From Methylocapsa palsarum (GTDB taxonomy: Bacteria > Pseudomonadota > Alphaproteobacteria > Rhizobiales > Beijerinckiaceae): 64,000 nt of DNA. Each line of letters starts with the position of its first letter. Within the stretch, counting starts at the first letter, position 1. The notes below the pieces were generated by a model. The model was not told the origin of the DNA. It did no database searches and saw nothing but the letters and a program-made list of their open reading frames with translations. The translations under genes and the position numbers were made by a program. Location: the NCBI RefSeq assembly GCF_900114285.1, contig NZ_FOSN01000018.1, positions 1 through 64,000 on the forward strand, in the 5' to 3' direction. Positions 984 to 22,178 of the stretch are shown here, one piece after another.

Positions 984-986
984 GGC

Positions 987-3778: not shown

Positions 3779-3845
3779 GACGCAATAAATCCTTTTCGGG
3801 TGTTGCGTGATTGCCCTGCCACAGGCATTTTATTCGAAGACGGAG

Positions 3846-3882
3846 AACCCCCTTGCACGGCGAATGCGGGGGGTTTTTCTTT
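3846..3882 (+). terminator. GC-rich hairpin followed by T-run
   Basis: ACCCCC pairs with GGGGGT across an inner GCA/TGC step, and the plus strand continues with five T, C and three T. Read on the plus strand this has the form of an intrinsic terminator. It lies directly downstream of the ribbon-helix-helix-like gene, which is on the minus strand, where the U-tract is weak. It may act on antisense transcription or partially on both strands. Confidence 0.45.
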
Positions 3883-4081
3883 ATGCGCTCCGCTGTACGC
3901 CGAGCCGCTCAACCTTTTCCCGCAGCGCCTGTCGAGTTAGCTCCGCGCGAGTAGTGCCATGGGCCGCCGCGACCTCTCCCAACATGACGTATTCCGGCCA
4001 AGAGACAGACGTCGCGAGCGTGACGATGGCACGACCATCGCGCGTGGCTTTGCCGTTTTTAAGCTTGCGGTTGAGTTCCAT
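3881..4081 (-). CDS. Small ribbon-helix-helix-like protein
   Basis: This 66-residue basic protein has a polar N-terminal strand segment followed by a WPEYVMLGEVAAAHG helix, a turn, and a TRAELTRQALREKVERL helix. That layout resembles CopG/Arc-type ribbon-helix-helix DNA-binding proteins. GGAG lies about 10 bases upstream of the ATG. It is the first gene of the minus-strand operon and could autoregulate it from the adjacent AT-rich spacer. The family call comes from pattern only. Confidence 0.55.
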   Translation of the reverse strand: MELNRKLKNGKATRDGRAIVTLATSVSWPEYVMLGEVAAAHGTTRAELTRQALREKVERLGVQRSA

Positions 4082-4907
4082 CGAAAGGGGTCTCCAAACA
4101 TCGTCTCCAAGAAGGTAAGATAACTAAACGTAATTACAAGGGCAAAAGCGCCGTCAAAACACGATTTATACTGCCTCACCCGCCCATAGGCCTCGTCATA
4201 GACTTCAATCTAGGGGTATAAATCTGGAAAAACTGTAAATTTGCGTGGGAACGCGAATAACGCGATGCAAGGCAGAGATGTCGAGACTTCGGAGTATTTC
4301 GACGGGAAGCGGAAGAACCGCGAATAAGCGCTAGAAGTGAGAACTTTCCGAAACAAATGACGGAATAGGCAAAACCGGATCAAACTGGAGATAACAGAAA
4401 CATTCGTTCGTCAAAGCAAACAACACGCAGAATGCAAAGCAAACGCTAAAAGCGGGAGCAAACGTTAAAAGCCGAGAAATGCCGAAAGAAACGGAAAAAC
4501 GGCCCAAAGAAGCGCGTCATTCCGGCAATTAGGTAAAGTTGCCGAACACACTTAGGCCAACGCCAAGAACGCGGTCGAGGTCGAGGGTCCGGCCGTGCTC
4601 GCGGCAAGAACGAGGGCGACGGCCAGACCTCGGCGCAAGTCCGCGCTCTCGCGCGAGGGCGAGGCTTTGCACTAGGGATAGTGTGTAGCACAGATACAAC
4701 AGATGTGCGAAATGTCACACATACTAGATGTTGTCGCTACCGGACCCCCCGTTCCCCCCATTGACCGGATTGCGCGCCTCGAAAGCGCCCTTTCGCCGCA
4801 ACCGGGACAAGCGGCGAGCCACGAGTGGTGATCGGGGCGAAGCAGACGAAGGACTTGCGGGACGAAAGACCCGCCAGACGAAAGACCTGCCCAAAGCCGG
4901 CCCATAA
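4082..4907. other. Non-coding junction spacer with short repeats
   Basis: No convincing gene is present in these ~825 bases. The left part (to ~4530) is A-rich. It contains two adjacent 19-bp copies beginning AGCAAACG (4438-4456 and 4457-4475, two or three mismatches) and a third partial copy near 4415. From about 4550 the composition becomes GC-rich like the efflux genes. The stretch probably holds the accessory operon promoter and marks the boundary of an acquired segment. No integrase, tRNA or clear attachment site was found. Confidence 0.5.
4438..4475. repeat. Two adjacent 19-bp direct repeats (iteron-like)
   Basis: The copies share AGCAAACG, then C or T, then TAAAAGC. They lie upstream of the ribbon-helix-helix-like gene. 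Such repeats could bind a small DNA-binding protein or an initiator, but only two full copies are present. Confidence 0.4.
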
Positions 4908-7900
4908 TTATGCGGCGGTCGACTTCCTCGCCGGACCTTTGTCCCTGCGGCGCGCTTCTTCAAAACGCTGCATGATCACAAAAACCGATGGCGCGAAGAC
5001 GACGGTGAGGAGGGTCGAGCCGAGCATTCCGGTGAGGACCGCGATGCCGATCGACTTCTGCGCGTTCGCGCCGGCTCCCGAACTGAGGACAAGCGGCACG
5101 ACGCCAAGAATAAAAGCGAAGGAGGTCATCAGGATCGGCCGAAAACGCGCGCGCGCCGCTTCGATCGCGGCGCTGGCGATACCGCGCCCTTCCCTGATCC
5201 GAAGCTCGCGTGCGAACTCGACGATGAGAATGGCGTTTTTGCTCGACAGCGCGATCAGCAGGATCAAGCCGATCTGCGTGTAGAGGTTGCTCGCGACGTG
5301 CAGCGCCAGCAGTGCGAAAGCCGTTCCAAGCAGGGCGAGCGGCACCGAGGCGATCACGGTCAGAGGCGCGATCCAGCTTTCGTATTGGCCGGCGAGCACA
5401 AGATACACCAGCAGCAGACTCAACGCATAGATCCAGTAGATCTGATTGCCGACCTGCTTCTCCTGAAACGACATTTCCGTCCACTCGAAGCCGGCGCCGG
5501 CCGGCAAGGTGTCGGCCGCGATCTGCTCGAGAACCGACAGGCCCTGCCCCGAACTGTAGCCCGTCGCGGTCCCTGTGATGATCGTCGCGGCGGGATAGAG
5601 ATTGAACAGGCTGATGAGCGGCGGCCCGGCGACGGTCTTGATGTTGGCCAGCGTGCCGAAGGGAACCATGTCGCCGGAATTGTTGCGCACCTGCAGGGTT
5701 TTCAGCGATTCCTCGTTGACGCGCGCCGAGGCCTCGGCCTGCACATAAATCTGGAACACCCTGCCGAACCGGTTGAACTGCCCGACGTAACTGGAGCCCA
5801 TGTAGGAGCTCAAGGCGTCGAGGGCGCTGCCGAGCGGAACGCCGAGCGTTTCCGTTTTGACGCGATCGAAGGTCACGTCGAGCTGAGGCGCGCTCGCCGA
5901 GAAATAATTGCGGGCGAAAGCGAACATCGATTGCTGCGCCGCCCGACGGCTGATCGCGTTGGCCAGTTTCTGAAGTTCGGCGTAATCGAAGGAGCCGTTG
6001 CGCAGCTGCACCTTCATCGTCGAGCCGGCGGAATTGCCGACGCCCTGGATCGGCGGCGGCGGCACGACCAGGGCGACGCCGTCGGGCAGGACTTTCATCC
6101 GCTCCGACAACGCGGCGTAAAGCCCGCGCAAATCCTCTCCCTTGCCGCGCTCGCTCCAATCCTTGAGGATGACGTAGGCGACGCCCGCATTGGACAGGCT
6201 GGCGTTGTCGTTCAGCGCGGCGATTCCGGAGATCGCGACCACCTGTTCGACGCCCGGCTGCATCTTCGCGCGCCGTGTGACGTCATCCAATGCGCGCGTC
6301 GTGCGCTCCAGGGAGGCGCCGTCCGGGAGCTGCACCGCGACCACGAAATATCCTTGGTCCTCGATCGGCATGAAGGCTGTCGGAACAAGGCTGAGGGCAT
6401 AGACGGACAGAACGACGAGCGCCGCGACGACCGAGCTCATGAGCGCCGCCCGCTTCACCATGAAAGCGATCAGCCGGGCGTACCAGTTCTCCGCCGCGTT
6501 GTAGGCCCGATTGAAGCCGCGATAGAAAAAGTTCCTTTCCTCCGGCGGCGTCGACGGCCGCAGCCAAAGCGCGCATTGCGTCGGCTTCAGGGTGAGGGCG
6601 TTGACCGCGCTGATCAACGCCGTCGCCGCGATCACCATGGCGAATTGCCGGTACATCTGGCCGCTCAGGCCGGGCAGGAACGCCGCCGGCACGAAGACCG
6701 CCATCAGCACCAGCGTAATGCCGATGATCGGACCCAGAAGCTGGTCCATCGCCTTGATCGCCGCGTCATGCGGCGTCATTCCCTCGTCGATGAACTTCGC
6801 CGCGCCCTCGACGACGATGATGGCGTCGTCGACGACGATCCCGATCGCGAGAATGATCGCGAACAAAGTCGAGAGATTGATCGTGAAGCCGAAGGCCGCG
6901 ATGGCCGCGAAGGCGCCGATGATGGTGACGGGAACCGTCGTCGCCGGGACAAGCGTCGCGCGCCAGTCCTGAAGAAAAACCAGGATGACGATGAGGACAA
7001 GCAGCGCGGCCTCGATCAGGGTCTTGTAGACGTCATGAATCGCCACCGCGACGAACTTCGTCGTATTGAAGGGAATGGTCCATTTTATCCCCGGCGGAAA
7101 CGACGGCGCCAGCTCGCGCATTTTCGCCTCGACGCGTTTTGCGACGTCAAGCGCGTTCGCCTCCGGCAACTGGAAAACGGAGAGTCCCGCGGAGGGATGA
7201 CCGTCCAGCTTGAACGTCTGGCTGTATTGCTGCGCGCCGAGTTCTATCCGGGCGACGTCCTTCAGCCGGGTGATGCTGCCGCCGTTCGTCTGCTCGGCCT
7301 TGACGATGATGTTTTCGAACTCCGCGGCGTCGTCAAGATTGCTCGGCACGTTGATCGTGTATTGAAACGCCTGGCCTGGAGGAACCGGCGGAATGCCGAC
7401 CTGCCCCGCCACGGTCGAACGGCTTTGCAGATTAACCGCCTTGATCACGTCGCTCGGGGACAGCTTGCGGGCCTCGAGCTTTTGCGGATCGAGCCAGATC
7501 CGCATGGCGTACTGACCGGCTCCGAAAATCGACACGCTGCCGACGCCGTCGAGCCGGGAGATCTGGTCGAGAAGATTGATCGTCGCAAAATTGGAGAGGT
7601 ACAGCCCATCAAATTCGTCGCCAGGCGAGGACAAGGAGACGATTTCCAGGATCGACGTCGATTTCTTGTTTGTCTGCACCCCTTGCGTCTGCACCGCTTG
7701 CGGGAGAGTCGGAAGGGCGGTCGCGACCCTGTTCTGCACAAGGATCTGCGCCTTGTCCGCATCGGTTCCGATTTTGAACGTGACGGTCAGCGTGTATTGC
7801 CCGTCGCTGGTGCTCATCGACGACATGTAGATCATGCCTTCGACCCCGTTCACCTTCTGCTCGATCGGCAGGGCGACATCGCGGATGACCGTCGAGGGAC

Positions 7901-8060
7901 TGGCCCCCGGATAGCGCGTCGTCACCTGTACGGTCGGCGGCACGACGTTCGGATAATGGGCGACCGGAAGGTTGAGCAGCGAGACCAGCCCGAGGATCAC
8001 GATCAACAACGCGATGACGTTGGAAAGGACCGGGCGCTCGATAAAGAATTTTGCGATCAT
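4908..8060 (-). CDS. RND multidrug efflux transporter, inner-membrane subunit (HAE1 family)
   Basis: At 1050 residues the protein has the length and architecture of AcrB/MexB-type pumps. The first membrane helix begins MIAKFFIERPVLSNVIALL, a large periplasmic domain follows, helices 2-6 lie near residues 340-560, then come a second periplasmic domain and the C-terminal helix bundle. The proton-relay Asp pair sits in the fourth helix (VVDDAIIVVEG, about residues 411-412). It would export hydrophobic compounds using the proton gradient, with the adaptor encoded just upstream. The ATG overlaps the adaptor stop (ATGA). No outer-membrane factor or regulator gene is adjacent, so a shared TolC-like channel is inferred. 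Confidence 0.95.
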   Translation of the reverse strand: MIAKFFIERPVLSNVIALLIVILGLVSLLNLPVAHYPNVVPPTVQVTTRYPGASPSTVIRDVALPIEQKVNGVEGMIYMSSMSTSDGQYTLTVTFKIGTDADKAQILVQNRVATALPTLPQAVQTQGVQTNKKSTSILEIVSLSSPGDEFDGLYLSNFATINLLDQISRLDGVGSVSIFGAGQYAMRIWLDPQKLEARKLSPSDVIKAVNLQSRSTVAGQVGIPPVPPGQAFQYTINVPSNLDDAAEFENIIVKAEQTNGGSITRLKDVARIELGAQQYSQTFKLDGHPSAGLSVFQLPEANALDVAKRVEAKMRELAPSFPPGIKWTIPFNTTKFVAVAIHDVYKTLIEAALLVLIVILVFLQDWRATLVPATTVPVTIIGAFAAIAAFGFTINLSTLFAIILAIGIVVDDAIIVVEGAAKFIDEGMTPHDAAIKAMDQLLGPIIGITLVLMAVFVPAAFLPGLSGQMYRQFAMVIAATALISAVNALTLKPTQCALWLRPSTPPEERNFFYRGFNRAYNAAENWYARLIAFMVKRAALMSSVVAALVVLSVYALSLVPTAFMPIEDQGYFVVAVQLPDGASLERTTRALDDVTRRAKMQPGVEQVVAISGIAALNDNASLSNAGVAYVILKDWSERGKGEDLRGLYAALSERMKVLPDGVALVVPPPPIQGVGNSAGSTMKVQLRNGSFDYAELQKLANAISRRAAQQSMFAFARNYFSASAPQLDVTFDRVKTETLGVPLGSALDALSSYMGSSYVGQFNRFGRVFQIYVQAEASARVNEESLKTLQVRNNSGDMVPFGTLANIKTVAGPPLISLFNLYPAATIITGTATGYSSGQGLSVLEQIAADTLPAGAGFEWTEMSFQEKQVGNQIYWIYALSLLLVYLVLAGQYESWIAPLTVIASVPLALLGTAFALLALHVASNLYTQIGLILLIALSSKNAILIVEFARELRIREGRGIASAAIEAARARFRPILMTSFAFILGVVPLVLSSGAGANAQKSIGIAVLTGMLGSTLLTVVFAPSVFVIMQRFEEARRRDKGPARKSTAA

Positions 8061-9229
8061 GGCGCGCCCGGCGGCGGACTCGCGCCGCCTTGAACGGGAT
8101 GAACCTTATTGCCCGGCACCGCGAGTTCAAGGCCCCCGACGACGATCCGCTCTCCGGCCCGCAGGCCCGACTCGATGATTCTGAGGCCAGGGTCGACCTG
8201 CTCGCCGACGACGACCACCCGCTGCTCGACGATATTCTTGTCGTTGAGGACAAGCAGATAGCGGCCCTGCTGGCCCGTGGAGAGCGCGACCTCCGGAGCC
8301 AGCAAGGCCTCGGCGTTCCTTTCCACAGGCACGCGCACGCGCACGAAGAGGCCCGGCAACAGCCGCGTGTTCTTGTTGTCCAGAACGGCCCGCACCGTCA
8401 GGGTGCCCGTACTCGAATCGATTTGCGGCGCGACATAGTTGATCGCGCCCTCGTGAGGATAGCCGTCCTCGGTCTGGAGTCCGATCCCGACCGGGATGGG
8501 ACCGAGATCCTTCAGCGAGAGGCCCATGCTTTTCAGCCGCTGACGGATCTTGAGCACCTGCTGTTCGTCGATATTGAAATAGACATAGATTGGATCGGTC
8601 TGGACAATGGTCGCGAGCTTTGTCGGACCATTGGCTCCGACAAAGGCGCCGGGGTCCGCGAGCCGGGCCGAGACCGCGCCGTCGAACGGCGCCGCGATGG
8701 TCGTATAGTCAAGATTGCGGCTCGCCTGCGCCACCTGGCCCTTTGCCTGGGCGAGGGCCGCGAAGGTGGAATCGCGTTTGGCCTTGGCTTCGTCGAGGGA
8801 GGCGACGGAGGAGGCCTGACGCGCCACAAGCTCCTGTTTGCGTTTCAGATCTGCGTCAGCCTGAACGAGAAGCGCGGCCTGCTGGTCCTGCGCGGCGCGG
8901 GCGATGTCGAGCGCGATCTTGTAGTCGTAGGGCTGGATCTGAAACAGCAGATCGCCCTTTGCGACCCTCGCGCCGTCATTGTAGCCTACCTTTTCGATGA
9001 ATCCCTGGACGCGCGCGACAAGGTCCACCTTGTTCACGGCCGCGGTCGCGCCGGTCAGTTCGATGAACAACGTGACGCTTCGCTGTTCAGGCGTCACAAT
9101 CGTGACGTCGGGGGGCGGCGGCGGCTGATAAGTGTTCCGGTCGCCGCAAGCCGCAAGCATGACAAGCATGGGCAGGGCGCCGGCGGCGGCGATGACGCCC
9201 CTGCGCGGTTTGGCCGCGATCTCGATCAT
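8057..9229 (-). CDS. RND efflux periplasmic adaptor (membrane fusion protein), lipoprotein
   Basis: I place the start at the ATG at 9229 (390 residues) rather than at a more upstream in-frame codon. It has GGGAA six bases upstream and gives a normal lipoprotein signal ending in a LAAC lipobox with Cys at residue 28. The order is typical of AcrA/MexE adaptors: a lipoyl-like half (VDLVARVQGFIEKV), an alpha-hairpin of Ala/Gln/Lys-rich helices, the second lipoyl half (TIAAPFDGAVSARL), then beta-barrel and membrane-proximal domains. It links the RND pump to an outer-membrane channel. The spacer to the divergent PAP2 gene contains GTCAT-A-ATGAC at 9380-9390, a possible operator. Confidence 0.93.
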   Translation of the reverse strand: MIEIAAKPRRGVIAAAGALPMLVMLAACGDRNTYQPPPPPDVTIVTPEQRSVTLFIELTGATAAVNKVDLVARVQGFIEKVGYNDGARVAKGDLLFQIQPYDYKIALDIARAAQDQQAALLVQADADLKRKQELVARQASSVASLDEAKAKRDSTFAALAQAKGQVAQASRNLDYTTIAAPFDGAVSARLADPGAFVGANGPTKLATIVQTDPIYVYFNIDEQQVLKIRQRLKSMGLSLKDLGPIPVGIGLQTEDGYPHEGAINYVAPQIDSSTGTLTVRAVLDNKNTRLLPGLFVRVRVPVERNAEALLAPEVALSTGQQGRYLLVLNDKNIVEQRVVVVGEQVDPGLRIIESGLRAGERIVVGGLELAVPGNKVHPVQGGASPPPGAP

Positions 9230-9466
9230 GGCGTTCCCGATCAACCGTAAAAAATTCCGGTTTTGACTGTGAGTCCGTTTCAAACGCCCGGTTAAGCTGA
9301 CGCTCGCCGGGCGGAGAGCCAGGACTTTCCCGCTTTTGAGGTCGCTTGCCATAGGACCGGCATAGGGTCTACCTTTATCGTCATAATGACATTCAGAATC
9401 AGATTTTTCGTTGCGGAAATCCACGTGGAAATCCTAGCTTCGGTTTCTGGGAAGGCGTTTTGATGA

Positions 9467-10153
9467 ATGTTCGACGAGACTGACGCCACATCAAACGAGA
9501 GCAGGCGACAGCGTGACGGCCTCCCGGCCGCGTCCGCCAGCCCAAGCGAAGATCCGTCAAAAACCTTGCGCCAGGCGCGCAAGCCGTGGATGCGCGGTCT
9601 CTCGGCGTTGAGACATTGGTGGCGGCCTTGGAAAGATCGCCTTTTTAGCGCCGATCTCGCCGCGGTTCACTTTATCGCCCGGTCGGCGCGCACCGCCGCC
9701 GGACGCCAATCCGCGATCATCGTGAGCAAGCTGGGCGACGGTTGGCTTTATCCGTTGCTTGGCCTATTCGTGTTCGAATTCCTCGGGGATCAGGAAAGAA
9801 GGGTCATCCTGCTGGCGGGCGTCAACGTAGGGCTGCTGCATTGTCTCTATCCCCGGATCAAGCGCTTCGTGGGCCGGCCGCGCCCGTTCAATTCAGACCC
9901 GACCTTGTCGCCGCCGTTCAAGGCCATCGACGAGTTTTCGTTTCCGAGCGGGCACGCCATGACCCTCTCCGGCGCTCTCGTGCCCATCGTTCTTGCCTGT
10001 CCCGGCTTCTCCCTCTCGGCGGCCGCGCTGATGCTGACAATGGCGTGGGCGCGGATCGCGACGACTCACCATTATCCAAGCGATATTTTCGGCGGAATTC
10101 TGCTCAGTCTCGCCCTCGCCTATCCCCTTTCGGCCTGGGCTCTTGCGGAATGA
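9467..10153 (+). CDS. PAP2-family membrane phosphatase
   Basis: The 228-residue protein has the three phosphatase signatures of the PAP2 superfamily: KRFVGRPRP near residue 132, PSGH near residue 160, and an ARIATTHHYPSD block near residue 200 with catalytic His and conserved Asp. Hydrophobic segments flank these motifs, consistent with an integral membrane enzyme acting on a lipid phosphate such as phosphatidate or undecaprenyl pyrophosphate. Its first ~55 residues are polar and probably cytoplasmic. A glycosyltransferase gene follows after 52 bp, suggesting a joint role in membrane lipid modification; the substrate is not evident. Confidence 0.88.
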   Translation: MFDETDATSNESRRQRDGLPAASASPSEDPSKTLRQARKPWMRGLSALRHWWRPWKDRLFSADLAAVHFIARSARTAAGRQSAIIVSKLGDGWLYPLLGLFVFEFLGDQERRVILLAGVNVGLLHCLYPRIKRFVGRPRPFNSDPTLSPPFKAIDEFSFPSGHAMTLSGALVPIVLACPGFSLSAAALMLTMAWARIATTHHYPSDIFGGILLSLALAYPLSAWALAE

Positions 10154-10205
10154 CCCTCCCTCACGAAACGATCCGGGGCGAGGATGCGCAAGGATTCGGA
10201 GCAGA

Positions 10206-11237
10206 ATGAAGCGGATCCTCGTCGTCACCGATACATGGCGCCCTCAGGTCAATGGCGTCGTCCGGTCGCTTGAAGCGCTTTCGGCCGCCGCGCTCGAGCT
10301 CGGCGCCAGCGTTCAGTTCCTGTCGCCCCAGGGCTTCCGGTCGTTCCGCATGCCGACCTACCCGGAGCTTCGGCTCGCCTTGACGACCGCCGGGATCGTC
10401 GGACGGCGGATCGAAGCGCTTTCGGTGGACCATGTCCATATCGCCACGGAAGGCCCTCTTGGCTTCGCCGCCCGCCGGTACTGCCTGCGAAACGACATCT
10501 GCTTCACCACGAGTTACCATACGAAGTTTCCCGAATATGTCTCGGCCCGCGCCTTCGTCCCCAAAAGCCTCGTTTACCGCTGCCTGCGCTGGTTCCACAA
10601 TGCCGGGTCAGGCGTGTTCGTCTCGACGGACAGCCTCGCGGCCGATCTCGAAGCCAGGGGCTTCAAACAGTTGATGCACTGGTCGCGCGGCGTCGATCAC
10701 GATCGCTTCCGCATGCGGGAAACCTCCGTTCTCGATTTTCCCCGGCCGATCTTCCTGTCGGTCGGCCGGCTGGCGGTGGAGAAGAACCTGAAGGCCTTCC
10801 TGGACCTCGATCTTCCCGGCACGAAAGTCCTCGTCGGCGACGGGCCGGACCGGGCGAAACTTGAAGCCGCCTACCCGCAGGCCCGCTTTCTTGGCTCACG
10901 CAGCGGCGACGAACTCGCCGAGATCTATTCGAGCGCGGATGTGTTCGTTTTTCCCAGCATGACCGACACGTTCGGCATGGTCTTGCTGGAGGCGATGGCG
11001 AGCGGACTGCCTGTCGCCGCCTTTCCCGTTCCGGGGCCGCTCGACGTGGTCGGCGAAAGCGGCGCGGGCGTCCTCGACGAGGATTTGCGAAGCGCCTGCC
11101 TGAAGGCTTTATGGGTGCCGCCATGGAAAGCCCGCGCCCACGCCGAAACCTTCAGCTGGCAGGCGAGCGCGCGGCAATTTCTGGAAAATCTGTCGGCGGT
11201 AGACCCCTCTTTCACCATCGGGCTTGCGAACACCTGA
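10206..11237 (+). CDS. GT4-family glycosyltransferase
   Basis: The start is set at the ATG at 10206, preceded by GGAG, giving 343 residues. The N-terminal domain begins with a Rossmann strand (MKRILVVTDTWRPQVNGV) typical of acceptor domains in GT4 retaining enzymes. The C-terminal domain has a FLSVGRLAVEKNL strand and the SMTDTFGMVLLEAMASG block with the conserved Glu. The DTFG form resembles the GDP-mannose-dependent mannosyltransferase group (MgtA/PimB-like). Location after a PAP2 phosphatase suggests synthesis of a membrane glycolipid. Donor and acceptor are inferred only from family resemblance. Confidence 0.85.
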   Translation: MKRILVVTDTWRPQVNGVVRSLEALSAAALELGASVQFLSPQGFRSFRMPTYPELRLALTTAGIVGRRIEALSVDHVHIATEGPLGFAARRYCLRNDICFTTSYHTKFPEYVSARAFVPKSLVYRCLRWFHNAGSGVFVSTDSLAADLEARGFKQLMHWSRGVDHDRFRMRETSVLDFPRPIFLSVGRLAVEKNLKAFLDLDLPGTKVLVGDGPDRAKLEAAYPQARFLGSRSGDELAEIYSSADVFVFPSMTDTFGMVLLEAMASGLPVAAFPVPGPLDVVGESGAGVLDEDLRSACLKALWVPPWKARAHAETFSWQASARQFLENLSAVDPSFTIGLANT

Positions 11238-11436
11238 CCCTCAAATGTTCCGGCGCCGGGATTCACGCGCCGCCCCATGAAATTGCGGCGGTTCGCTCCG
11301 CGGCGCCCAACTCCAAAGCTTGCGATTCAGGGATCCGCGCCTTACCTCTCGGTCGTACGCCGAAGCCGGCGACCCGTCGAACCGGGCGCCGCTGGTGGTC
11401 GCCCAAGCCTAGGTCAACGCGTCAGGAGAGCCAGAA

Positions 11437-12714
11437 GTGCCCTTTCTCAGCATAGGCTTCATCATTGCGGCGAGCGTCTGGGCGGCTCTCTCCCTTTATC
11501 TGTCGATGCGTCAGGTCTCCTATGTGCTGGCTCGCCGCGACGCCGTCCCGGCGGATTTCGCCGGCGCGATTTCGCAGGAAGAACACCGGAAAGCCGCTGA
11601 CTACACAGTGGCGCGCGAACGGTTCAGCCGGTACGAGACTCTGATCGAACTCGCCCTTTCCGCGGCTTGGGTTTTCGGCGGGATCAACCTCCTTTACGGC
11701 TCCCTTGCATCGGTCCTTTCGCCGTCGCTTTGGCTCGGCGTCGCTTTCTTCATCGGAACGATGGCCGTCGGCGCCATCGTGTCCCTTCCCCTCGATCTCT
11801 ACAAAACCTTCGTCCTCGAGCAAAAGTTCGGCTTCAACCGGACGACGCTCCAGACTTTCGCAGCGGACCGCGTCAAGGGGGCCGTGATCTTCCTTGCCGT
11901 TGCGGTTCCGCTGCTGTTCGCGGCCCTCTTCGTCATGCGCGCCTTCGCCGGTCTGTGGTGGCTGTGGGTGTGGCTTGGCCTCGTCGTCCTGATGGTCGCC
12001 GCGCCGACCGTGTACGTCCGGCTGATCGCGCCTCGCTTCAACCAGTTCGCGCCGCTCGCCGACGAGGCGCTGCGGCTTCGCATCGAGCGGCTGCTGAACC
12101 GTTGCGGATTTCGCTCCTCGGGTCTCTTCACCATGGACGCGTCAAAGCGCTCCGCCCACGGAAACGCCTTTTTCATCGGCTTTGGCGCGGCGAAGCGGAT
12201 CGTGCTGTTCGACACGCTCCTGTCGCACAGCACCCCCGAGGAGGTCGAAGCCGTCGTCGCCCACGAACTCGGGCATTTCAAGCATCGGCATGTTCTCTAC
12301 TCGATTGTGCGCAGCGCGATCGTCACCTTCGCCGCGCTCGCAGCCTTCGGCTGGCTCGCAAAACAGCCCTGGCTGCTTCCGGCGTTCGGGATCGGCTACA
12401 AGGACGACGCGCTTGCGCTCTTTGTCTGCACGCTCCTCGCCTCCGTCGTCGGTCCGCTCGCCGCTCCCGTCGGCAACTGGATTTCGCGCCGCAACGAGTT
12501 TCAAGCCGACGATTATGCGCGCCAGAACGTCGGCGCGGGCCCCATGGTCAGCGCTCTGACCAAACTGGCGCGAGACAACGCCTCGACGCTGACGCCCGAC
12601 CCGGTTTACGCCCTGGTCAATTACTCGCATCCTCCAGTGCCGATCCGCATCCGGCATCTGCGTCGCGCGGAAACGCCCGGCTCCGGCAAGATGGCCGCCC
12701 CCATCTCGGCCTGA
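11437..12714 (+). CDS. M48-family (Ste24-like) membrane metalloprotease
   Basis: A GTG start follows AGGAGAG, giving 425 residues. The zinc motif HELGH is at about residues 276-280, and the third ligand Glu lies in NEFQADDYA near residue 355. Several hydrophobic helices in the first 200 residues and two after the zinc motif match the Ste24 layout, in which a helical barrel encloses the active site. Bacterial members act on membrane-associated proteins; the substrate here is unknown. The gene is monocistronic between the glycosyltransferase and the convergent nasA. Confidence 0.9.
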   Translation: MPFLSIGFIIAASVWAALSLYLSMRQVSYVLARRDAVPADFAGAISQEEHRKAADYTVARERFSRYETLIELALSAAWVFGGINLLYGSLASVLSPSLWLGVAFFIGTMAVGAIVSLPLDLYKTFVLEQKFGFNRTTLQTFAADRVKGAVIFLAVAVPLLFAALFVMRAFAGLWWLWVWLGLVVLMVAAPTVYVRLIAPRFNQFAPLADEALRLRIERLLNRCGFRSSGLFTMDASKRSAHGNAFFIGFGAAKRIVLFDTLLSHSTPEEVEAVVAHELGHFKHRHVLYSIVRSAIVTFAALAAFGWLAKQPWLLPAFGIGYKDDALALFVCTLLASVVGPLAAPVGNWISRRNEFQADDYARQNVGAGPMVSALTKLARDNASTLTPDPVYALVNYSHPPVPIRIRHLRRAETPGSGKMAAPISA

Positions 12715-12741
12715 CCGCGCGCCGTCCGGCTCACCCCGCCC

Positions 12742-15420
12742 TCAAGCCATCACGGGCCGGCGCAGCGCGAGCATCCGTTTCAGCTCCGGAATGCACGAGC
12801 CGCAATTGGAGCCTGCCTTGAGGCTCTTTCCGATGGAAGCGACATCGTTGCAGCCGGCCTCGATCGCGGCCTCGATCCGGCCGCGAGCGACGCCGAAACA
12901 GGCGCAGACGTTCGGCCCTTCGTCCGGCATTCCGCTTGCGCGTCTGCCGGACAGCAGGCTCCGCCGCGCGGCGGGATCGAGGCGTTCATCCGCAAAGGCC
13001 TCGCGCAGGACTGTCCAGTCTGACGGCGGCGTTTGCGCCGCGAGAAATGACGCCGCGACCAGGCGATCATTAAAGATGAGGCCCGAGCGAAAGACGCCCT
13101 GGCCCGTATCCCTGAGCGAGAGCGCAGACGCCTCGCGCGGCCCAAGCCCCCGCAGGGCGTCCACCCATTCCTCGTCCGGGGCGTCGGTCTCGACGCGGGC
13201 GGTAAAGCCGCCCTCGATCGCCTGCCACGCCCAATAGGATTGCGCGGGCAAAGCGGCGCGCCGCCGCGCGAGCACGAACCCGGCGCGGCGCATCTCGACC
13301 GGCGCCAAGGCGACCGGCGTCGCCTTCGCGTCGGGCTGTCCCGATTCCGGATCGACGCAGCGATGGACCAGCGCCCCGACGCACGAATCGCTGGAGGTTT
13401 CATGGCTCCAGTGGATCGGCGCGAACACCTCGCCGCGCTGCTGCGTCCCGGTTACCTGCACGCGAAAGATCGCGGCGCCCTCCGCGCTCGCGACGCGCGC
13501 CAGGTGGCCGTCCTTTAGCCCGGCCGAAGCCGCGTCGTCTGGATGAATCGAAAGGCAGGGTTCGGCGCTATGGCCGCCAAGGCGCGGCGAAAGGCCTGTG
13601 CGGGTCATGGTGTGCCATTGATCGCGCAGCCGGCCGGTATTGAGAAGGAACGGGAAGCGGTCCGACGTCGCTTCGGCGAGCCGGGGCGGGTCGATGGGGA
13701 TGAATCTCGCCTTGCCGGACGCCGTGTAGAACAAACCGTCGGAGAAAAGACGCCGCCGTCCCGAAGCCTCGCCGCGACGGACCGGCCATTGCGCCGGGGC
13801 GAGGCTGTCGTAGTCCCTCGGCTTCAGATCGGCGAGGCCGCTGATGTCGAAATCCCGTGCGCCGTCGTTTTCGAACCCAGAAAGAGCCGCGTGTTCGGCG
13901 AAAATCTCCGAGACGTTGTTGAATTCGAACCCGGCGAAGCCGAGGCGCCGCGCCGCCTGAGCCACGGCCCACCAATCGGGCCGCGCTTCGCCAGGGAGCG
14001 GCAGGAAAGGTCTCTGGCGCGAGATGCGGCGTTCCGAATTGGTGACGGTTCCGTCCTTTTCGCCCCAAGCCGCCGCCGGCAGGATCACATGCGCGCCCGC
14101 GCGCAAGGTGTCGTTGGAGCGGACGTTCTCGGACACGACAAAGAGTTCGAGCTTGCCCAACGCGGCCCGCACCCGGTTGACGTCCGGCAGGCTCACGGCG
14201 GGATTGGTGCCAATGACCCAGAGCGCCTTCACCTCACCCCTACCGATGGCCTCGAACAGATCGACGGCTTTGAGGCCCTCGCGGACCGCCATATTCGGCG
14301 CGTTCCAGAATCGCCGCACCCGGTCGATGTCGGCCGGCGAAAATCCCATATGCGCGGCCAATTGATTGGCGAGGCCGCCGACCTCGCGCCCGCCCATGGC
14401 GTTCGGCTGGCCCGTCAGCGAAAATGGTCCCATCCCTTCCCGGCCGATGCGTCCCGCCGCGAGATGGCAATTGAGGATGGCGGAGACCTTGTCGGCGCCC
14501 TGCGAGGACTGGTTGACGCCCTGACTGTAGAGCGTGACCACCCGTTCGGTCGAAATCCAGAGATCGAAAAATTCCTCGACGTCGCGCTCGCTGAGCCGCG
14601 CGGCCGCGGCCGTCGCGGCGATGGTCGGCGCGATCTGGCGCGCGCGCGCCAAGGCTTCAGTGAAGCCCTCGGTGTGCGAGTTGACGAACGTTTCGTCGAC
14701 ATGGCCGCGATCCGCGAGCTGGACCAGCAGGCCGGAAAACAACGTCCCGTCCCGTCCCGGCGCCACGGAAAGATGCAGGCTGGCGGCCTCCGACGTCGCG
14801 GTCCGGCGCGGATCGATGGTGACGAGGCGCGCGCCGCGCCGCTCCTGGGCCTTCGCCATCCGCTGAAACAGGACCGGATGGCACCAGGCCGCGTTGGACC
14901 CGGTGAGCACCAGGAGATCGGCCTCGTCGAGATCCTCGTAGCATCCAGGCACCGTATCCGACCCGAAGGCGCGCTTGTGCCCGGCGACCGACGAGGACAT
15001 GCAGAGCCGCGAATTGGTGTCGACATTGGCCGAACCGATGAAGCCCTTCATCAGCTTGTTGGCGACGTAATAATCTTCGGTGAGCAGCTGGCCGGAAAGG
15101 TAGAACGCGACCGCATCCGGTCCGTGCTCCGCGATGATGCGCCCGATGTTCGACGCGACATGATCGAGCGCCGCGTCCCACGTGGCGCGCGCGCCACGAA
15201 CAACCGGATAAAGCTGTCTCGTCTCCAGCCCGAGGGTCTCCCCGAGAGCCGAGCCTTTGGAGCACAGGCGGCCGAAATTCGACGGATGCGCTTCGTCGCC
15301 CTCGATCGCCGCGCCGCCGGCGCCGTCAGGGGAGGCGAGCACCCCGCACCCGACGCCGCAATAGGGACAGATCGTCCTGACCGCCGCGCGTCCGAGGCGC
15401 GTTTCCGCCAGCGTGTTCAC
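12742..15420 (-). CDS. nasA: Assimilatory nitrate reductase catalytic subunit with C-terminal BFD-like domain
   Basis: This 892-residue molybdopterin enzyme reduces nitrate to nitrite in the cytoplasm. The N-terminal [4Fe-4S] ligands are Cys18, Cys21, Cys25 and Cys53. The central part has molybdopterin-guanine-dinucleotide motifs (e.g. GVNQSSQG, TGQPNAMGGREVGGLANQLAAH), and the dinucleotide-binding domain lies around residues 590-700. The last ~55 residues form a BFD-like [2Fe-2S] module with Cys839, Cys841, Cys873 and Cys876, as in NasA of Klebsiella type. Translation starts at GTG overlapping the stop of the FAD oxidoreductase gene (GTGA), so the two are coupled. It is the last gene of the nrt-nas operon. 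Confidence 0.95.
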   Translation of the reverse strand: MNTLAETRLGRAAVRTICPYCGVGCGVLASPDGAGGAAIEGDEAHPSNFGRLCSKGSALGETLGLETRQLYPVVRGARATWDAALDHVASNIGRIIAEHGPDAVAFYLSGQLLTEDYYVANKLMKGFIGSANVDTNSRLCMSSSVAGHKRAFGSDTVPGCYEDLDEADLLVLTGSNAAWCHPVLFQRMAKAQERRGARLVTIDPRRTATSEAASLHLSVAPGRDGTLFSGLLVQLADRGHVDETFVNSHTEGFTEALARARQIAPTIAATAAAARLSERDVEEFFDLWISTERVVTLYSQGVNQSSQGADKVSAILNCHLAAGRIGREGMGPFSLTGQPNAMGGREVGGLANQLAAHMGFSPADIDRVRRFWNAPNMAVREGLKAVDLFEAIGRGEVKALWVIGTNPAVSLPDVNRVRAALGKLELFVVSENVRSNDTLRAGAHVILPAAAWGEKDGTVTNSERRISRQRPFLPLPGEARPDWWAVAQAARRLGFAGFEFNNVSEIFAEHAALSGFENDGARDFDISGLADLKPRDYDSLAPAQWPVRRGEASGRRRLFSDGLFYTASGKARFIPIDPPRLAEATSDRFPFLLNTGRLRDQWHTMTRTGLSPRLGGHSAEPCLSIHPDDAASAGLKDGHLARVASAEGAAIFRVQVTGTQQRGEVFAPIHWSHETSSDSCVGALVHRCVDPESGQPDAKATPVALAPVEMRRAGFVLARRRAALPAQSYWAWQAIEGGFTARVETDAPDEEWVDALRGLGPREASALSLRDTGQGVFRSGLIFNDRLVAASFLAAQTPPSDWTVLREAFADERLDPAARRSLLSGRRASGMPDEGPNVCACFGVARGRIEAAIEAGCNDVASIGKSLKAGSNCGSCIPELKRMLALRRPVMA

Positions 15421-16634
15421 GCGGCCTCGCTCAATGACGACGCCGCCTGTCCGAATGCAAGGGTGTCCCGTATCGATTCAATCGACGCTCCGGAGCGGAT
15501 CAGATCCTGATACCAGAGCCCGTCCACTGCGTCGCCGAACAGCACCGCGCCGACGAGGCGGCCGGCCTCGATCACCAGCTTCTTGTAGACGCCGGCGGCG
15601 GGATCCTCGAAGACGATCGCCTCGCGTCCCGCATCATTAAAATCGCCAGCTGAAAACAGTGCGACCCCCGCGATCTTGAGATTGGTGGCGAGCGTGGAGC
15701 CCGCGAAGGCCGCGCGGGAATCGCCGGTAAGACGCCGGGCGAGAACCTTCGCCTGTTCATACGCCGGCTCGACGAGGCCATAGGCGACGCCGCGATGTTC
15801 CGCGCATTCCCCGAGCGCGAAAATGTCGGCGTCGCTCGTCGCCATTGCGTCGTCGACGACAATCCCACGGTTGACGGCAAGTCCCGCCGCGCGCGCGAGG
15901 TCCGCGTTCGGCCGCACGCCCACCGCGCAGACGACGAGGTCCGCCTCGATCTGAATCCCGTTCTTGAGCGCGACGCCCTCGGCGCGATCCGTCCCGACGA
16001 TGAAATCGGTTTCTGCTTCGAGCATCACCTCGACGCCCTTGGTCCTCATCGCCTCGGCGAGGAGCCGCGCGGCGGACGCGTCGAGTTGGCGCTCCATCAG
16101 GCGGTCCACGACATGGATCAGCGTCACCTTCACGCCGGCTTTCGCAAGACCATAGGCGGCTTCAAGACCAAGAAGGCCGCCGCCGATCACGGCGGCGCGG
16201 CGACCCAGCGCCGCTTCGCGAAGCATCGCGTCCACATCGCCCATGGTCCGAAACGTCATGACCCCTTGCAGGTCCATGCCAGGCCGCGGCAGCCGGATCG
16301 GATGCGAGCCGGTGGCGAACACGAGCTTCGAATAGGGAAGCTCCAGCCCGCTCTCAAGACGAACCGTCTTCGCGTTCCTGTCGACGCCGGCGACCGGGGA
16401 GCCATAAAGATTGGTGACGCCGCGGCCTTCCCACCATTGCGAGGGTTTCAGTTCGATGTCGGCGGCGGCGATCTCACCCGCAAGGACCGACGACAAAAGG
16501 ACGCGGTTATAGGCGCGGAAGGGTTCCGCCCCGATCACGACGATCGCATACCGGCCGAGGGCCCGCGCCGACAGTTCATCGGCGAGGCGGGCCGCCGCCA
16601 TCCCCTGCCCCACGATCACCAGTGGCTCGCTCAT
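15417..16634 (-). CDS. FAD/NAD(P)H oxidoreductase, electron-transfer partner of nitrate reductase (NasC/NirB-N-like)
   Basis: The start is the ATG at 16634 (405 residues), because the conserved dinucleotide-binding strand MSEPLVIVGQGMAAARLAD begins there. Two Rossmann signatures are present: GQGMAA at residue 9 for FAD, and GGGLLGLEAA near residue 150 for NAD(P)H. The protein matches the N-terminal flavin module of NirB and the NADH-oxidising subunit NasC, but it has no siroheme or Fe-S nitrite reductase domain. It most likely passes NAD(P)H electrons to NasA. It overlaps nasA by 4 bp. Nitrite reduction must be done by an enzyme encoded elsewhere. Confidence 0.88.
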   Translation of the reverse strand: MSEPLVIVGQGMAAARLADELSARALGRYAIVVIGAEPFRAYNRVLLSSVLAGEIAAADIELKPSQWWEGRGVTNLYGSPVAGVDRNAKTVRLESGLELPYSKLVFATGSHPIRLPRPGMDLQGVMTFRTMGDVDAMLREAALGRRAAVIGGGLLGLEAAYGLAKAGVKVTLIHVVDRLMERQLDASAARLLAEAMRTKGVEVMLEAETDFIVGTDRAEGVALKNGIQIEADLVVCAVGVRPNADLARAAGLAVNRGIVVDDAMATSDADIFALGECAEHRGVAYGLVEPAYEQAKVLARRLTGDSRAAFAGSTLATNLKIAGVALFSAGDFNDAGREAIVFEDPAAGVYKKLVIEAGRLVGAVLFGDAVDGLWYQDLIRSGASIESIRDTLAFGQAASSLSEAA

Positions 16635-16674: not shown

Positions 16675-17472
16675 TCACGCCGCCTCCACGAAATGCTGAC
16701 GCTCGTAGAGAAATCTGAGAACGGATTCGCGCGCGCCGATGTAGGCGGGGTCGGCGGCCAGTTCGAGCCGCTCGCGGGGTCGTGGAAGCGGAACGGACAG
16801 AACCTCGCCGATGGTCGCCGCGGGGCCATTGGTCATCATCACGATCTGGTCGGACAGCAACACAGCCTCATCGACGTCGTGCGTTATCATGAGGACCGTA
16901 TTGCCGAGCGAGCCGTGAATGCGCATGAGCGAATCCTGCAGATGCGCCCTCGTCAGCGCGTCGAGCGCGCCGAACGGCTCGTCGAGCAAGAGAACCTTCG
17001 GCTCCATCGCGAGTGCCCGGGCGATGCCGACGCGCTGTTTCATTCCGCCCGAGATTTCCGATGGACGCTTGTCCCTGGCATGGACCATCTGAACGAGCTC
17101 AAGATTGTGCATTGTCCAGTCGTGGCGCTGCGCCCGCGTCTTGGCGCCGCTGAACACTTTGTCGACGGCGAGGCGGACATTCGCGTAGACGCTGAGCCAG
17201 GGCAGAAGCGAGTGGTTCTGGAACACGACGGCGCGGTCCGGGCCGGGACTGTTGACCTCCCGGTTATCGAGAATGACGCCGCCAGTCGTCGCCTGCGTCA
17301 ACCCCGCGACGAGATTGAGCATGGTCGACTTGCCGCAGCCCGAATGGCCGATGATCGAGACGAACTGGCCTTTCTCGACGCCAAGGTTGATGTCCCGCAG
17401 CACTTCGCTCTCAACGCCGCGGCGGGAAAAGGTCTTTCCGACCTGATCGATTTTAAGGTAGGGCTGGCTCAT
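16675..17472 (-). CDS. nrtD: Nitrate ABC transporter ATP-binding protein
   Basis: The true product is 265 residues from the ATG at 17472 (MSQPYLKIDQVGKTF). The longer in-frame extension upstream is out-of-frame nrtB sequence. Walker A (GHSGCGKST) is near residue 40, the signature ISGGMKQRVGIARA near residue 145, Walker B (KVLLLDEPFGALD) near residue 170, and the switch His in MITHDVDEA. It energises nitrate import through NrtB. Only 11 bp separate it from nrtB, and 40 bp from the downstream oxidoreductase gene. Confidence 0.94.
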   Translation of the reverse strand: MSQPYLKIDQVGKTFSRRGVESEVLRDINLGVEKGQFVSIIGHSGCGKSTMLNLVAGLTQATTGGVILDNREVNSPGPDRAVVFQNHSLLPWLSVYANVRLAVDKVFSGAKTRAQRHDWTMHNLELVQMVHARDKRPSEISGGMKQRVGIARALAMEPKVLLLDEPFGALDALTRAHLQDSLMRIHGSLGNTVLMITHDVDEAVLLSDQIVMMTNGPAATIGEVLSVPLPRPRERLELAADPAYIGARESVLRFLYERQHFVEAA

Positions 17473-18455: not shown

Positions 18456-19790
18456 TCAAGCGACGCGCTTGATCGCAAGGCTTGCGAGATAGGCGGATGG
18501 ATTGGCGGGGTCGAAAACCTTGCCGTCGAAGAAGGTTTCCTTGCCTCTCGAGGACGTGGCGGGGACGTCCTTGCCCGCGACGCCAAGGGTCTTCGCGGCC
18601 TCGCGCCACAGATCCTCGCGGTTCACCTTGTCGACCATCGCCTTGATGTCGGTCGAAGGCGCATATTTGCCCCAGCGGATGTCCTCGGCGACGAACCAGG
18701 AATCGTGGCTCTTGAACGGATAGGAGACGCCGCCAGCCCAGAATTTCATCTGCAGACCGGTGTTTTTGGCGACCCGGCCATTGCCGTAATTGATGTCGCC
18801 CTTGAGACGGCCGAGGACGTCGGCGGGCGGCACATTGAACCATTGGCGGCGGCCCAGAATGTCAGCCATTTCCGCCTTGTTCTCCATCTTGTCGCACCAT
18901 TGCTGGCCTTCCATCACGGCCATCAAAACGGCTTTGGCGGCCTTCGGGTATTTGTCGACCCAGGCGGCGCGCAGGCCGAGCGCTTTCTCGGGATGGTTTT
19001 TCCAAATTTCGCTGGTCGTGCACGCCGTGAAGCCGATTCCCTGATTGACGAGCTGCTCGTTCCAAGGCTCGCCGACGCAGAACGCGTCCATGTTGCCGAC
19101 CTTCATGTTCGCCACCATCTGCGGCGGCGGCACGACGATGGTCGATACATCCGTATCGGGATCGATGCCGCCGGCCGCGAGCCAGTACCGGAGCCAGAGA
19201 TCGTGGGTTCCGCCGGGGAAAGTCATCGCGACCTTCACCTCCTTGCCGGCGGCTTTTTTCGCGGCGAACGCGGCTTTCAGCGGAGCCGAATTGAGGCCGA
19301 CCTTGATGTCTTTATATTCGTTGGCGACGGAGATCGCCTGACTGTCGTAGTTGAGCCGCGCCAATATATACATCGGCGTCGGCTGGTTGTTCTGGGTGAC
19401 CTTGCCCGCCGAGATGAGATAAGGCATCGGCGACAGGATATGCGCCCCGTCGATTCCATTCGCCTCCGACCCGAGGACGATGTTGTCGCGGGTCGCGCCC
19501 CAGGACGCCTGCTTCGCGACCTCGGCGTCCTTCAGACCGAATTTTTCAAAAAACCCTTTTTCCTTGGCGATGATCAGCGGCGCGGAATCGGTGAGCGCGA
19601 TATAGCCGAGAACAACCTTGCTGATTTCGGGGCCGTCGGCGGCCGCGAAGACGCCGCCCGGAAACGCGCTTTGCGCCGAATAGACAGCAAGTCCCGCCAT
19701 CGCTTTGGCGGCGGAGCCGAGGGCGGCTCGCCGCGTCGCCTGCGCGGTCAACGGCGAGGACGCCTTCTGATCTGCGGCCTTGTCTGACAT
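18456..19790 (-). CDS. nrtA: Nitrate-binding periplasmic protein with Tat signal
   Basis: This 444-residue protein begins with a twin-arginine signal (TRRAALGSAAKAMAG, Arg20-Arg21) for folded export. The mature part belongs to the NrtA/CmpA solute-binding family (GYIALTDSAPLIIAKEKGFF, MTFPGGTHDLWLRYWLAAGGIDPD, FCVGEPWNEQLVNQGIGF). It delivers nitrate to NrtB/NrtD. It is the first gene of the operon, and its start lies 16 bp after the T-run of an attenuator in the leader. Confidence 0.95.
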   Translation of the reverse strand: MSDKAADQKASSPLTAQATRRAALGSAAKAMAGLAVYSAQSAFPGGVFAAADGPEISKVVLGYIALTDSAPLIIAKEKGFFEKFGLKDAEVAKQASWGATRDNIVLGSEANGIDGAHILSPMPYLISAGKVTQNNQPTPMYILARLNYDSQAISVANEYKDIKVGLNSAPLKAAFAAKKAAGKEVKVAMTFPGGTHDLWLRYWLAAGGIDPDTDVSTIVVPPPQMVANMKVGNMDAFCVGEPWNEQLVNQGIGFTACTTSEIWKNHPEKALGLRAAWVDKYPKAAKAVLMAVMEGQQWCDKMENKAEMADILGRRQWFNVPPADVLGRLKGDINYGNGRVAKNTGLQMKFWAGGVSYPFKSHDSWFVAEDIRWGKYAPSTDIKAMVDKVNREDLWREAAKTLGVAGKDVPATSSRGKETFFDGKVFDPANPSAYLASLAIKRVA

Positions 19791-19805
19791 TCTGGAGCTC
19801 CGCTC

Positions 19806-19857
19806 AAAAAAAAGCCGCTGACCGCCGACGCTCGGTCAAGCGCGGGTGGACAGCGGC
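19806..19857 (-). terminator. Intrinsic terminator (attenuator) in nas operon leader
   Basis: On the minus strand GCCGCTG (19857-19851) pairs with CAGCGGC (19820-19814), followed directly by eight T (19813-19806). A nested GCGCT/AGCGT stem lies inside. It sits between the promoter and nrtA, so it must be read through for the operon to be expressed. This is the position used by NasR/NasT-controlled attenuators in other nitrate operons. Confidence 0.75.
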
Positions 19858-19869
19858 GTTGCTGATCAC

Positions 19870-19887
19870 GGGCCCTTCATTGGACCC
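19870..19887 (-). promoter_or_regulatory. ANTAR-type hairpin with A1/G4 hexaloop
   Basis: On the minus strand GGGTCC-AATGAA-GGGCCC forms a 6-bp stem (one G-U pair) with a six-base loop. The loop has A at position 1 and G at position 4, the pattern described for RNA targets of ANTAR-domain antiterminators such as NasT and NasR. It lies 13 bases before the terminator. A segment CAGCGGC at 19917-19911 repeats the 3' arm of the terminator and can pair with its 5' arm, giving an antiterminator. I could not identify a canonical first hairpin. Confidence 0.6.
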
Positions 19888-20002
19888 ATATCACTCAAAG
19901 CGAATTTTATGCCGCTGGCGAACCAAGGGCCCGAAGAAGGCTGAATCCGCCCACGCGCGCCACGTCCGAGCTCCGTACAGGAACGCGCCCAAAACGCGCC
20001 CA

Positions 20003-20020
20003 AGCTGCCGGATTATAGCG
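20003..20020 (-). promoter_or_regulatory. Probable -10 box for nas operon leader
   Basis: The minus strand carries a perfect TATAAT at 20017-20012, in the 265-bp gap between the nasS remnant and nrtA. Transcription from about 20005 would give a leader of roughly 215 bases containing the hairpins above. The -35 region is not clear. Confidence 0.35.
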
Positions 20021-20055: not shown

Positions 20056-20787
20056 TCAGGGGCCGGGAGAAAGGTCAAGATCCAAGGGGAGGACGCTCGG
20101 CCCAGCGGGCGCGTCTCCAAGGTCAGGACGGTACACTGAAAGGGCAATTGCTTCGTTTTCGGGTAAACTGACTACCTGGTGGGCATCGACCATTTGCCGG
20201 AACAGCCAACGCGCGTGGTCGCGATTCGCCCGCGTCGCCTCCCGGTCGAGCCGCAGCGTCGCCAGCGGCGAAGCGCCGGACCGTGGCGCCAGGATATCCC
20301 GCAGCAGCGCGGCGGAAATGCGCGCCCATTCTTGCTGGGTGATTGCGGCCTTGACGAGAAGCTCGACCAGCGCATCGAGATGCGCGGGGTCGGCGCTCCA
20401 GTCAGCGGCCTCGCGGATCGCGGCTGAAAGGGCGCTGACGCATGGCCGGTTGGCGAGGGCGAAACCGGCCCGGAGCGCCAGCACCTTCTCGGGACAATTT
20501 GCGACGATCTCGCGGGAGGCGTGAAGGATTCGTCCGGCCCCCGCCTGCGCCGCGACAGAATTCCAGGGAGCGCCGACGCAAAACCCGTCGATCGACCCGT
20601 TCGCGAGGCTCGCCGCCATGAAAGGCGGCGGCGTCACCATCAGCCGCAAATCCGCGTCGGGATCGATGCCGCCCGCCGCGAGCCACAGCCGCAATTGATA
20701 ATGGTGGCTCGAAAACGGAAACACATGCGCGAGCGTGAGGGGCGGACCGGGTTTTTGTCGACGACCGCAATGAGAAAGCCGGAGTTC
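20056..20787 (-). pseudogene. 5'-truncated NasS-like nitrate sensor
   Basis: The frame encodes the C-terminal ~230 residues of a NasS/NrtA-family protein: GPPLTLAHVFPFSSHHYQL, then WLAAGGIDPD, then FMAASLANGSIDGFCVGAPWNSV. Homology continues about 20 residues upstream of the only in-frame start (GTG at 20724). Further upstream the frame is open to a TGA at 20862-20860 but reads as unrelated sequence. The N-terminal ~160 residues of a normal NasS are missing, and no NasT (ANTAR) gene is adjacent. NasS normally holds NasT inactive until nitrate binds. This copy is probably non-functional. Confidence 0.75.
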
Positions 20788-20936
20788 ATTCGCTAATCGG
20801 CGTTTCGGCGCCGCCGTTCCTTCGAGATTAGACGTCCAACTCTCACGCGGCGAACGCCCTCATCGGCGTCGCCCCGGGCAGCGGAACCAAACGCATTTTC
20901 TTGAATTCATCGACACATCGGAACGCCAATTGCTCA

Positions 20937-21302: not shown

Positions 21303-22178
21303 ATGGATAGTCTTCATCACGCAAAGCAAGTCCCAGGCAGGGGCTTTCCTCCCGGCGGGGATGCTTCGTACAGGAACGCGGACTGGACCGTCCCTCAGCG
21401 CTTTGACGCGTATTCCGACGTCGAGCATCAGACCTGGACAACTCTTTACGAGCGCCAGGCTGATCTTCTCCCCGGACGCGCTTGCGACGAATTTTTGCGC
21501 GGCCTCGACGCGCTTGACCTTCACGGAGCCGGAATTCCTGATTTCGAGCGATTGAACGCGCGCCTCGCCGCCCTGACGGGCTGGCGCGTCGCCGCTGTCC
21601 CCGGTCTCGTTCCTGACGAGGTTTTTTTCGAACATCTGGCCAACCGGCGCTTTCCGGCGAGCACCTTCATCCGCGGCGCCGATCAACTCGATTATCTCCA
21701 GGAGCCGGATGTCTTTCACGATGTCTTCGGGCACGTTCCCCTCCTCGCCGACCCCGTATTCGCCGATTACCTCCAGGCTTACGGGAAAGGCGGCCTTCGC
21801 GCCGCAAGGATGCGGCGGCTGCACAACTTGGCGCGGCTTTACTGGTACACCGTTGAATTCGGGCTTGTCCAAACGCCATCGGGCCTGCGCGTCTATGGCG
21901 CGGGCATCCTGTCTTCAAAGGCCGAAACGATCTACGCGATCGAGTCGCCGGCGCCCCATCGCATCGGCTTCGAGCTCGAGCGGGTCATGCGCACGCCTTA
22001 CCGGATCGACGACCTCCAGCAGGTCTATTTCGTGATTTCCTCGCTGCGCAGCCTGCTTGAGTCCACTCTCAATACCGATTTTCTGCCCTTATACGAGCGC
22101 CTGGCCGGGCTCTCGGATATAGAGATTCAGGCGATCGAACCCGGCGACGCGCTGTTTGGCCCGCGCTGCGCCGATTGA
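21303..22178 (+). CDS. phhA: Phenylalanine 4-hydroxylase
   Basis: This 291-residue protein is a bacterial pterin-dependent aromatic amino acid hydroxylase converting phenylalanine to tyrosine. The iron site is evident: His139 and His144 in FHDVFGHVPLL and Glu185 in YWYTVEFGL. The length fits the compact bacterial enzymes, which lack the regulatory ACT domain. AAGGGG sits 7 bases before the ATG. The gene stands alone; the pterin carbinolamine dehydratase partner is not in the window, though folE (pterin synthesis) is 7 kb downstream. Confidence 0.95.
   Translation: MDSLHHAKQVPGRGFPPGGDASYRNADWTVPQRFDAYSDVEHQTWTTLYERQADLLPGRACDEFLRGLDALDLHGAGIPDFERLNARLAALTGWRVAAVPGLVPDEVFFEHLANRRFPASTFIRGADQLDYLQEPDVFHDVFGHVPLLADPVFADYLQAYGKGGLRAARMRRLHNLARLYWYTVEFGLVQTPSGLRVYGAGILSSKAETIYAIESPAPHRIGFELERVMRTPYRIDDLQQVYFVISSLRSLLESTLNTDFLPLYERLAGLSDIEIQAIEPGDALFGPRCAD

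Follow-up and report, generated by a model that had tools for sequence, protein, structure and literature searches.

The nitrate operon in the window, i.e. the whole 64,000-nt stretch of Methylocapsa palsarum DNA analysed here (positions 1 to 64,000 of RefSeq contig NZ_FOSN01000018.1), was found to be preceded by a leader that is probably a canonical attenuation leader of the NasS-NasT type, with the dual hexaloop of ANTAR targets, orphaned by deletion of its regulator genes, so that the operon would now be silent or leaky. The operon includes nrtA, nrtB, an nrtC-like gene and the genes for a FAD/NAD(P)H reductase and a molybdopterin oxidoreductase, and is open throughout (Table 1). A methane/ammonia monooxygenase A gene present in the genome suggests that the organism is a methanotroph.

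Table 1 Leader, upstream remnants and nitrate operon genes, in order of transcription. Positions are those of the window.
Feature	Position	Strand	Basis or remarks
nasT remnant, first 16 codons only (MNSGFLIAVVDKNPVR)	20742..20789	-	aligned with nasT starts of five congeners
nasS remnant, second half only	20056..20745	-	frame differs from that of the nasT start; usual final residues lacking too
Isolated TATAAT box, no accepted -35	20012..20017	-	sequence scan
Possible decayed sigma54-type promoter TTGGTTCGCCAGCGGCAT	19909..19926	-	score 10; contains the CAGCGGC segment of the preliminary description
Whole NasT/ANTAR-type leader	19808..19890	-	match to covariance model R1, window excluded from model
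P1 hexaloop hairpin GGGTCC-AATGAA-GGGCCC	19870..19887	-	loop with A1 and G4; 9 bp in predicted fold
P2 hexaloop hairpin CAGC-AACGCC-GCTG (CAGCAACGCCGCTG)	19851..19864	-	loop with A1 and G4; 5' base of terminator
Intrinsic terminator GCCGCTG...CAGCGGC with T8	19806..19857	-	5' arm overlaps P2
nrtA-like nitrate-binding protein, 444 aa, first operon gene	18456..19790	-	81-83% identity to four congeners
nrtB nitrate ABC permease, 323 aa	17484..18455	-	TIGR01183, 310 bits, above cut-off
nrtC-like ABC ATPase, 265 aa, open	16675..17472	-	assigned by operon position and sequence
FAD/NAD(P)H reductase, 405 aa from likely ATG	15417..16634	-	nitrite-reductase-like N-terminal half; matches only positions 1-400 of the 794 in the NirB model
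Molybdopterin oxidoreductase with BFD-like domain, 892 aa	12742..15420	-	assimilatory nitrate reductase by context; scores below NasC cut-off

The terminator has the arms GCCGCTG (19857-19851) and CAGCGGC (19820-19814) on the minus strand, followed by eight T (19813-19806). These arms form the 7-bp base of a longer hairpin with imperfect pairing. Between the end of the T-run and the nrtA ATG at 19790 lie 15 bases, not 16 as given in a preliminary description of the region, which had correctly recorded the stem with its T-run, the TATAAT box (20017-20012) and the hairpin with the AATGAA loop carrying A1 and G4 (19887-19870). The same description held that the canonical first hairpin was missing and that the architecture might be a variant. 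The hairpin recorded is itself P1, and what had been overlooked was the second hexaloop, P2 (19864-19851), together with the deleted nasT and nasS genes upstream. Both hexaloops are present, and P2 shares sequence with the terminator's 5' arm, in agreement with the published model; according to the portion of PMC3369931 devoted to ANTAR targets, these are pairs of mini-hairpins whose six-base loops bear A1 and G4, and it is the sequence at the terminator's 5' base that folds into the second. The leader is a canonical ANTAR dual-hexaloop leader of the ordinary NasT type and not a variant, while binding of NasT and nitrate-dependent read-through are putative here. An assignment of the GGCTCCCTA-loop hairpin of some congeners as P1 and of the GGGTCC hairpin as P2 was dropped once the A1/G4 loop in CAGCAACGCCGCTG was recognised, and the same portion of PMC3369931 agrees.

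As the 5' arm of the terminator overlaps P2, the two structures are mutually exclusive. The 85-nt leader had a predicted folding energy of -44.5 kcal/mol (z = -5.1), equalled by none of 200 shuffled sequences. In the predicted folds, a transcript ending at 19849 contained P1 and P2, and the full leader P1 and the terminator. The predicted energy was -30.4 kcal/mol for the terminator hairpin against -4.4 kcal/mol for P2 alone, and a bound protein would therefore be needed to hold P2. The loop-to-loop distance was 21 nt, the range of the relatives spanning 20-23 nt in five congeners. The dual-hexaloop motif, defined for the search as two A1/G4 hexaloop hairpins with stems of 6 bp or more (P1) and 4 bp or more (P2), followed by a run of six or more T, occurred once in the 64 kb on both strands and in none of 60 random sequences having the dinucleotide frequencies of the window. 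Searching the window with Rfam at gathering thresholds gave only two tRNAs and no leader match.

Comparison with related leaders, which the preliminary description had suggested, found the hairpins conserved. A covariance model, R1, was built from 16 of the 25 relatives in which the motif occurs, the nine that differ in P2 form or in spacing being omitted and the window excluded; it matched the window leader with 63.5 bits (E 7.6e-18), the next-best match in the genome reaching 20.8 bits, so that a single strong leader was found. In 17 aligned leaders (window and 16 relatives) 94.7% of the P1 and P2 pairs were standard, against at most 49.4% when the partners were slid, a comparison biased in favour of the structure in that it came from the same 17 sequences. 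Changes on both sides were present in three of the six P1 pairs, a number reached by 16 of 500 shuffles, with a covariation score reached by none of the 500. All 68 P2 cells were paired; covariation is absent from P2 and the terminator base because these hardly vary. At each of the 25 alignment columns without variation among the 16 relatives, A1 and G4 of the two loops among them, the window has the conserved base.

This type of leader is not universal at nrtA loci. Among 96 such loci, the one in the window included and two of them (L036 and L072) being a single contig, the P2 sequence was present with at most one mismatch in 27 and with two or three in 15, and was absent from 54, many of them in Rhizobium, Agrobacterium and Bradyrhizobium. 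The P1 loops of congener leaders (L127, L128, L129 and others) read AATGAA, AATGAT, AACGAT, AACGAC or AATGGC, with A1 and G4 fixed and positions 2, 3, 5 and 6 variable. Some leaders (L127 at about 2652-2669, L130, L134) have an extra hairpin between promoter and P1, GACCG-GCTCCCTA-CGGTC in G001 and G005 and GATCG-GCTCCCTA-CGATC in G010, i.e. a paired stem change with the loop kept; none was seen in the window or in G013.

The order nasT, nasS, leader was found in the five congeners compared (G001, G004, G005, G010 and G013), and relative to each of them 926 bp are missing from the window. The deletion joins codon 16 of nasT to the middle of nasS, out of frame. No complete nasS lies at the locus, its first 131 residues being absent in comparison with the five congeners; the remnant is an open frame of 222 aa covering positions 130-251 of 252 of the NMT1_2 profile, which is the C-terminal half. 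Beyond the nasT remnant there is a plus-strand gene (21303-22178) that we take to be phenylalanine-hydroxylase-like. A search of the whole genome with the ANTAR profile PF03861 gave no match. Among 14 congeners the profile matched in 11, and among 60 relatives in 30; these genomes serve as the positive control because none of the 14 named control genomes matched. Two NasT queries against the genome returned only receiver-like matches that end before the ANTAR region or barely enter it. In this one assembly of 78 contigs, nasT is deleted and a complete nasT with an ANTAR domain was not found. Relaxed selection on the nasS remnant was considered and set aside: pairwise dN was higher for the window genome (G000) than among other congeners, but branch lengths displayed no clear acceleration, the ratio of nasS fragment to nrtA being 6.3 for G000 and 1.9 to 9.8 for the others. 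No date is claimed for the deletion.

A leader at E 1e-6 or better was present in 37 of 199 genomes of the family and 55 of 297 of the order, together 88 different genomes. An ANTAR gene anywhere in the genome accompanied it in 86 of the 88 (raw genome counts, relatedness ignored), the exceptions being the window genome and G006. The latter, with a leader of 73.1 bits and no ANTAR match, was rejected as a second orphan because a NasT query matched a gene fragment (nasT residues 2-53) that is cut off by the end of contig G006:C48. In two surveys, the window genome is the only one of the 88 with a strong leader and nothing of an ANTAR gene. The G006 leader itself (L190, G006:C79, 3373-3457, minus strand) is near-perfect and is followed by a short frame that starts like nrtA and then stops; positions 1-14000 of G006:C79 gave no match to nasT, nasS, nrtA and five other queries, and the leader is what remains of an operon that was lost or has moved. 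Weak leader matches in G106 and G120 looked on reading like plain terminators and were discarded.

Scored against what we take to be the sigma54 consensus, a sigma54-like site before the leader reached 11-13 in 25 of 26 relatives; the best site in the window scored 10, a value that 215 of 2000 random segments of 130 nt also attained, and the promoter of the relatives does not appear to be recognisable here. A scan for sigma70-type promoters between 19600 and 21400 gave no site that passed.

It is conceivable, and in our estimate unlikely, that the leader still works as a nitrate switch, the organism having kept nasT, with misassembly of nasTS as the cause of its absence here, or having another ANTAR protein that escaped detection. 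The assembly is fragmented, the contig break in G006 demonstrates how an ANTAR gene can be hidden, and the window leader keeps every invariant position, all of which would suit this reading. Against it, the junction is a clean gene-to-gene join with offset reading frames inside a 70-kb contig, not at a contig end, the estimated completeness of the genome is 100%, the ANTAR profile and both NasT queries found no gene, and the sigma54-like promoter appears unrecognisable as well.

Less probable still is a rewired operon, in which transcription would start upstream at the TATAAT box and a further CAGCGGC (19917-19911, minus strand), lying inside the degenerate sigma54-like site, would pair with GCCGCTG and act as an antiterminator that needs no protein, so that read-through would be partial and constitutive. 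The preliminary description had seen that this segment is identical to the 3' arm of the terminator, which is correct, and had given it the antiterminator role, which found no backing among the relatives: a complement of at least 7 nt to the P2 region lay upstream in none of the 21 testable of 26, the longest being 6 nt. The pairing would consequently be a new local feature, and it does occur in the predicted folds of RNAs running from 19935 or 19918 to 19849, as a 7-bp CAGCGGC:GCCGCTG helix around P1. The TATAAT box also has some weight, a box of this sequence having a chance of about 0.8% in 150 nt on a single strand, though the window contains seven on both strands against 2.75 expected and no -35 was recognised for this one. 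In the predicted fold of the full leader, however, the terminator wins, an RNA beginning at 19990 adopts another fold, with an energy no better than that of shuffled sequences (z -0.41), and CAGCGGC is a common word, with 33 sites in the window against 23.7 expected. That the lineage, after the loss of NasT, turned a protein-dependent antiterminator into a protein-free one by means of a new upstream start and the newly arisen CAGCGGC segment, with constant expression of the operon, is given very little credence. The 14-mer GGTTCGCCAGCGGC (window 19911-19924, minus strand) is identical to the 3' arm of the G004 terminator, as if the arm had been copied upstream; the identity may be due to chance or to a copied arm, the two being indistinguishable.

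Least credible of all is a plain constitutive terminator beside hairpins of no regulatory meaning, for while the terminator alone is unremarkable (2 sites in the region against 1.8 expected), both hairpins together with their loop bases have been conserved beside nasT-nasS in relatives, P1 covaries, and strong leaders track ANTAR genes across the surveyed genomes.

The orphaned NasT-type leader is the preferred reading, and the family mechanism, which presumably operated in the ancestor, can be outlined for the relatives. Nitrate would release NasT from NasS, and free NasT would stabilise P1 and P2; with the terminator's 5' arm taken up by P2, polymerase would then enter the nitrate operon. 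In the window genome nothing would hold P2 open, since only 16 codons of nasT and the second half of nasS are left and the searches detected no further ANTAR protein. The terminator would form by default, and the nitrate operon would be silent or expressed only by leakage. The switch was apparently left in its default off position after the regulator deletion; most likely the terminator is unopposed and the apparently intact operon silent or leaky. The preliminary proposal of a nitrate-responsive attenuator holds as regards an attenuator leader of the ANTAR (NasT) type, and fails as regards a response to nitrate in this genome, in which nasT and nasS are truncated and no ANTAR domain was found.

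A Paracoccus nasT mutant had no nas transcript and no growth on nitrate, according to those parts of PMC3795266 and PMC5424462 that deal with it, and the same nitrate growth defect is reported for a nasT mutant in the corresponding part of a study of Pseudomonas putida (PMC7261876). As nasT mutants elsewhere lose growth on nitrate, the window strain should, by analogy, be unable to induce its nitrate operon. Some observations count against the explanation. In Bradyrhizobium, deletion of nasT raised and did not silence narK-bjgb-flp despite predicted hairpins, as stated in the section of PMC6759348 on that mutant; and a silent operon would not keep its genes open for long, which speaks against the off state. 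Since the genes are open and the branch lengths of the nasS remnant are without clear excess, it follows that the loss is recent or that expression has some other driver, and the open operon genes fit a recent deletion or residual expression of other cause, the branch lengths not deciding between the two.

The value of the locus is that of a natural regulator deletion with an intact RNA target, which allows asking how an attenuated operon fares after loss of its antiterminator. Literature searches in an open-licence library, on nasT in Methylocystis or methanotrophs and on ANTAR regulator loss, listed no report of a natural loss of nasT. An ANTAR-type leader can be found without any ANTAR protein, so the presence of the leader alone is no predictor of a nitrate response.

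With the antiterminators EutV/eutP, NasR/nasF and AmiR/amiE, as far as they are described in the pertinent sections of PMC3369931 and PMC8934654, the window shares a pair of A1/G4 hexaloop hairpins, the second of which occupies the terminator's 5' base; unlike those systems, it stands in a host in which no ANTAR protein was found, and the eut linkers are of 5-12 nt whereas P1 and P2 of the window are 2 nt apart with the full 9-bp P1, or 5 nt on counting only 6 bp for P1. Another close likeness, drawn from the description in the relevant passages of PMC3795266 and PMC5424462, is to the NasS-NasT nas leader of Paracoccus denitrificans, which also belongs to a nitrate assimilation operon, has its hairpins in the non-coding region between nasS and the first structural gene, and undergoes intrinsic termination by default. 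There nasT and nasS lie upstream, as they do in the congeners of the window, whereas in the window both are deletion remnants, and for this reason its switch is without a partner. Bradyrhizobium diazoefficiens, a relative at the level of the order, has NasT-interaction hairpins in the leaders of nitrogen-oxide genes, and its NasT controls several operons, in the account given in that part of PMC6759348, whereas the window genome has a single strong leader. Set beside these systems, the leader is standard, and the locus is a natural loss of the antiterminator with its RNA target preserved.
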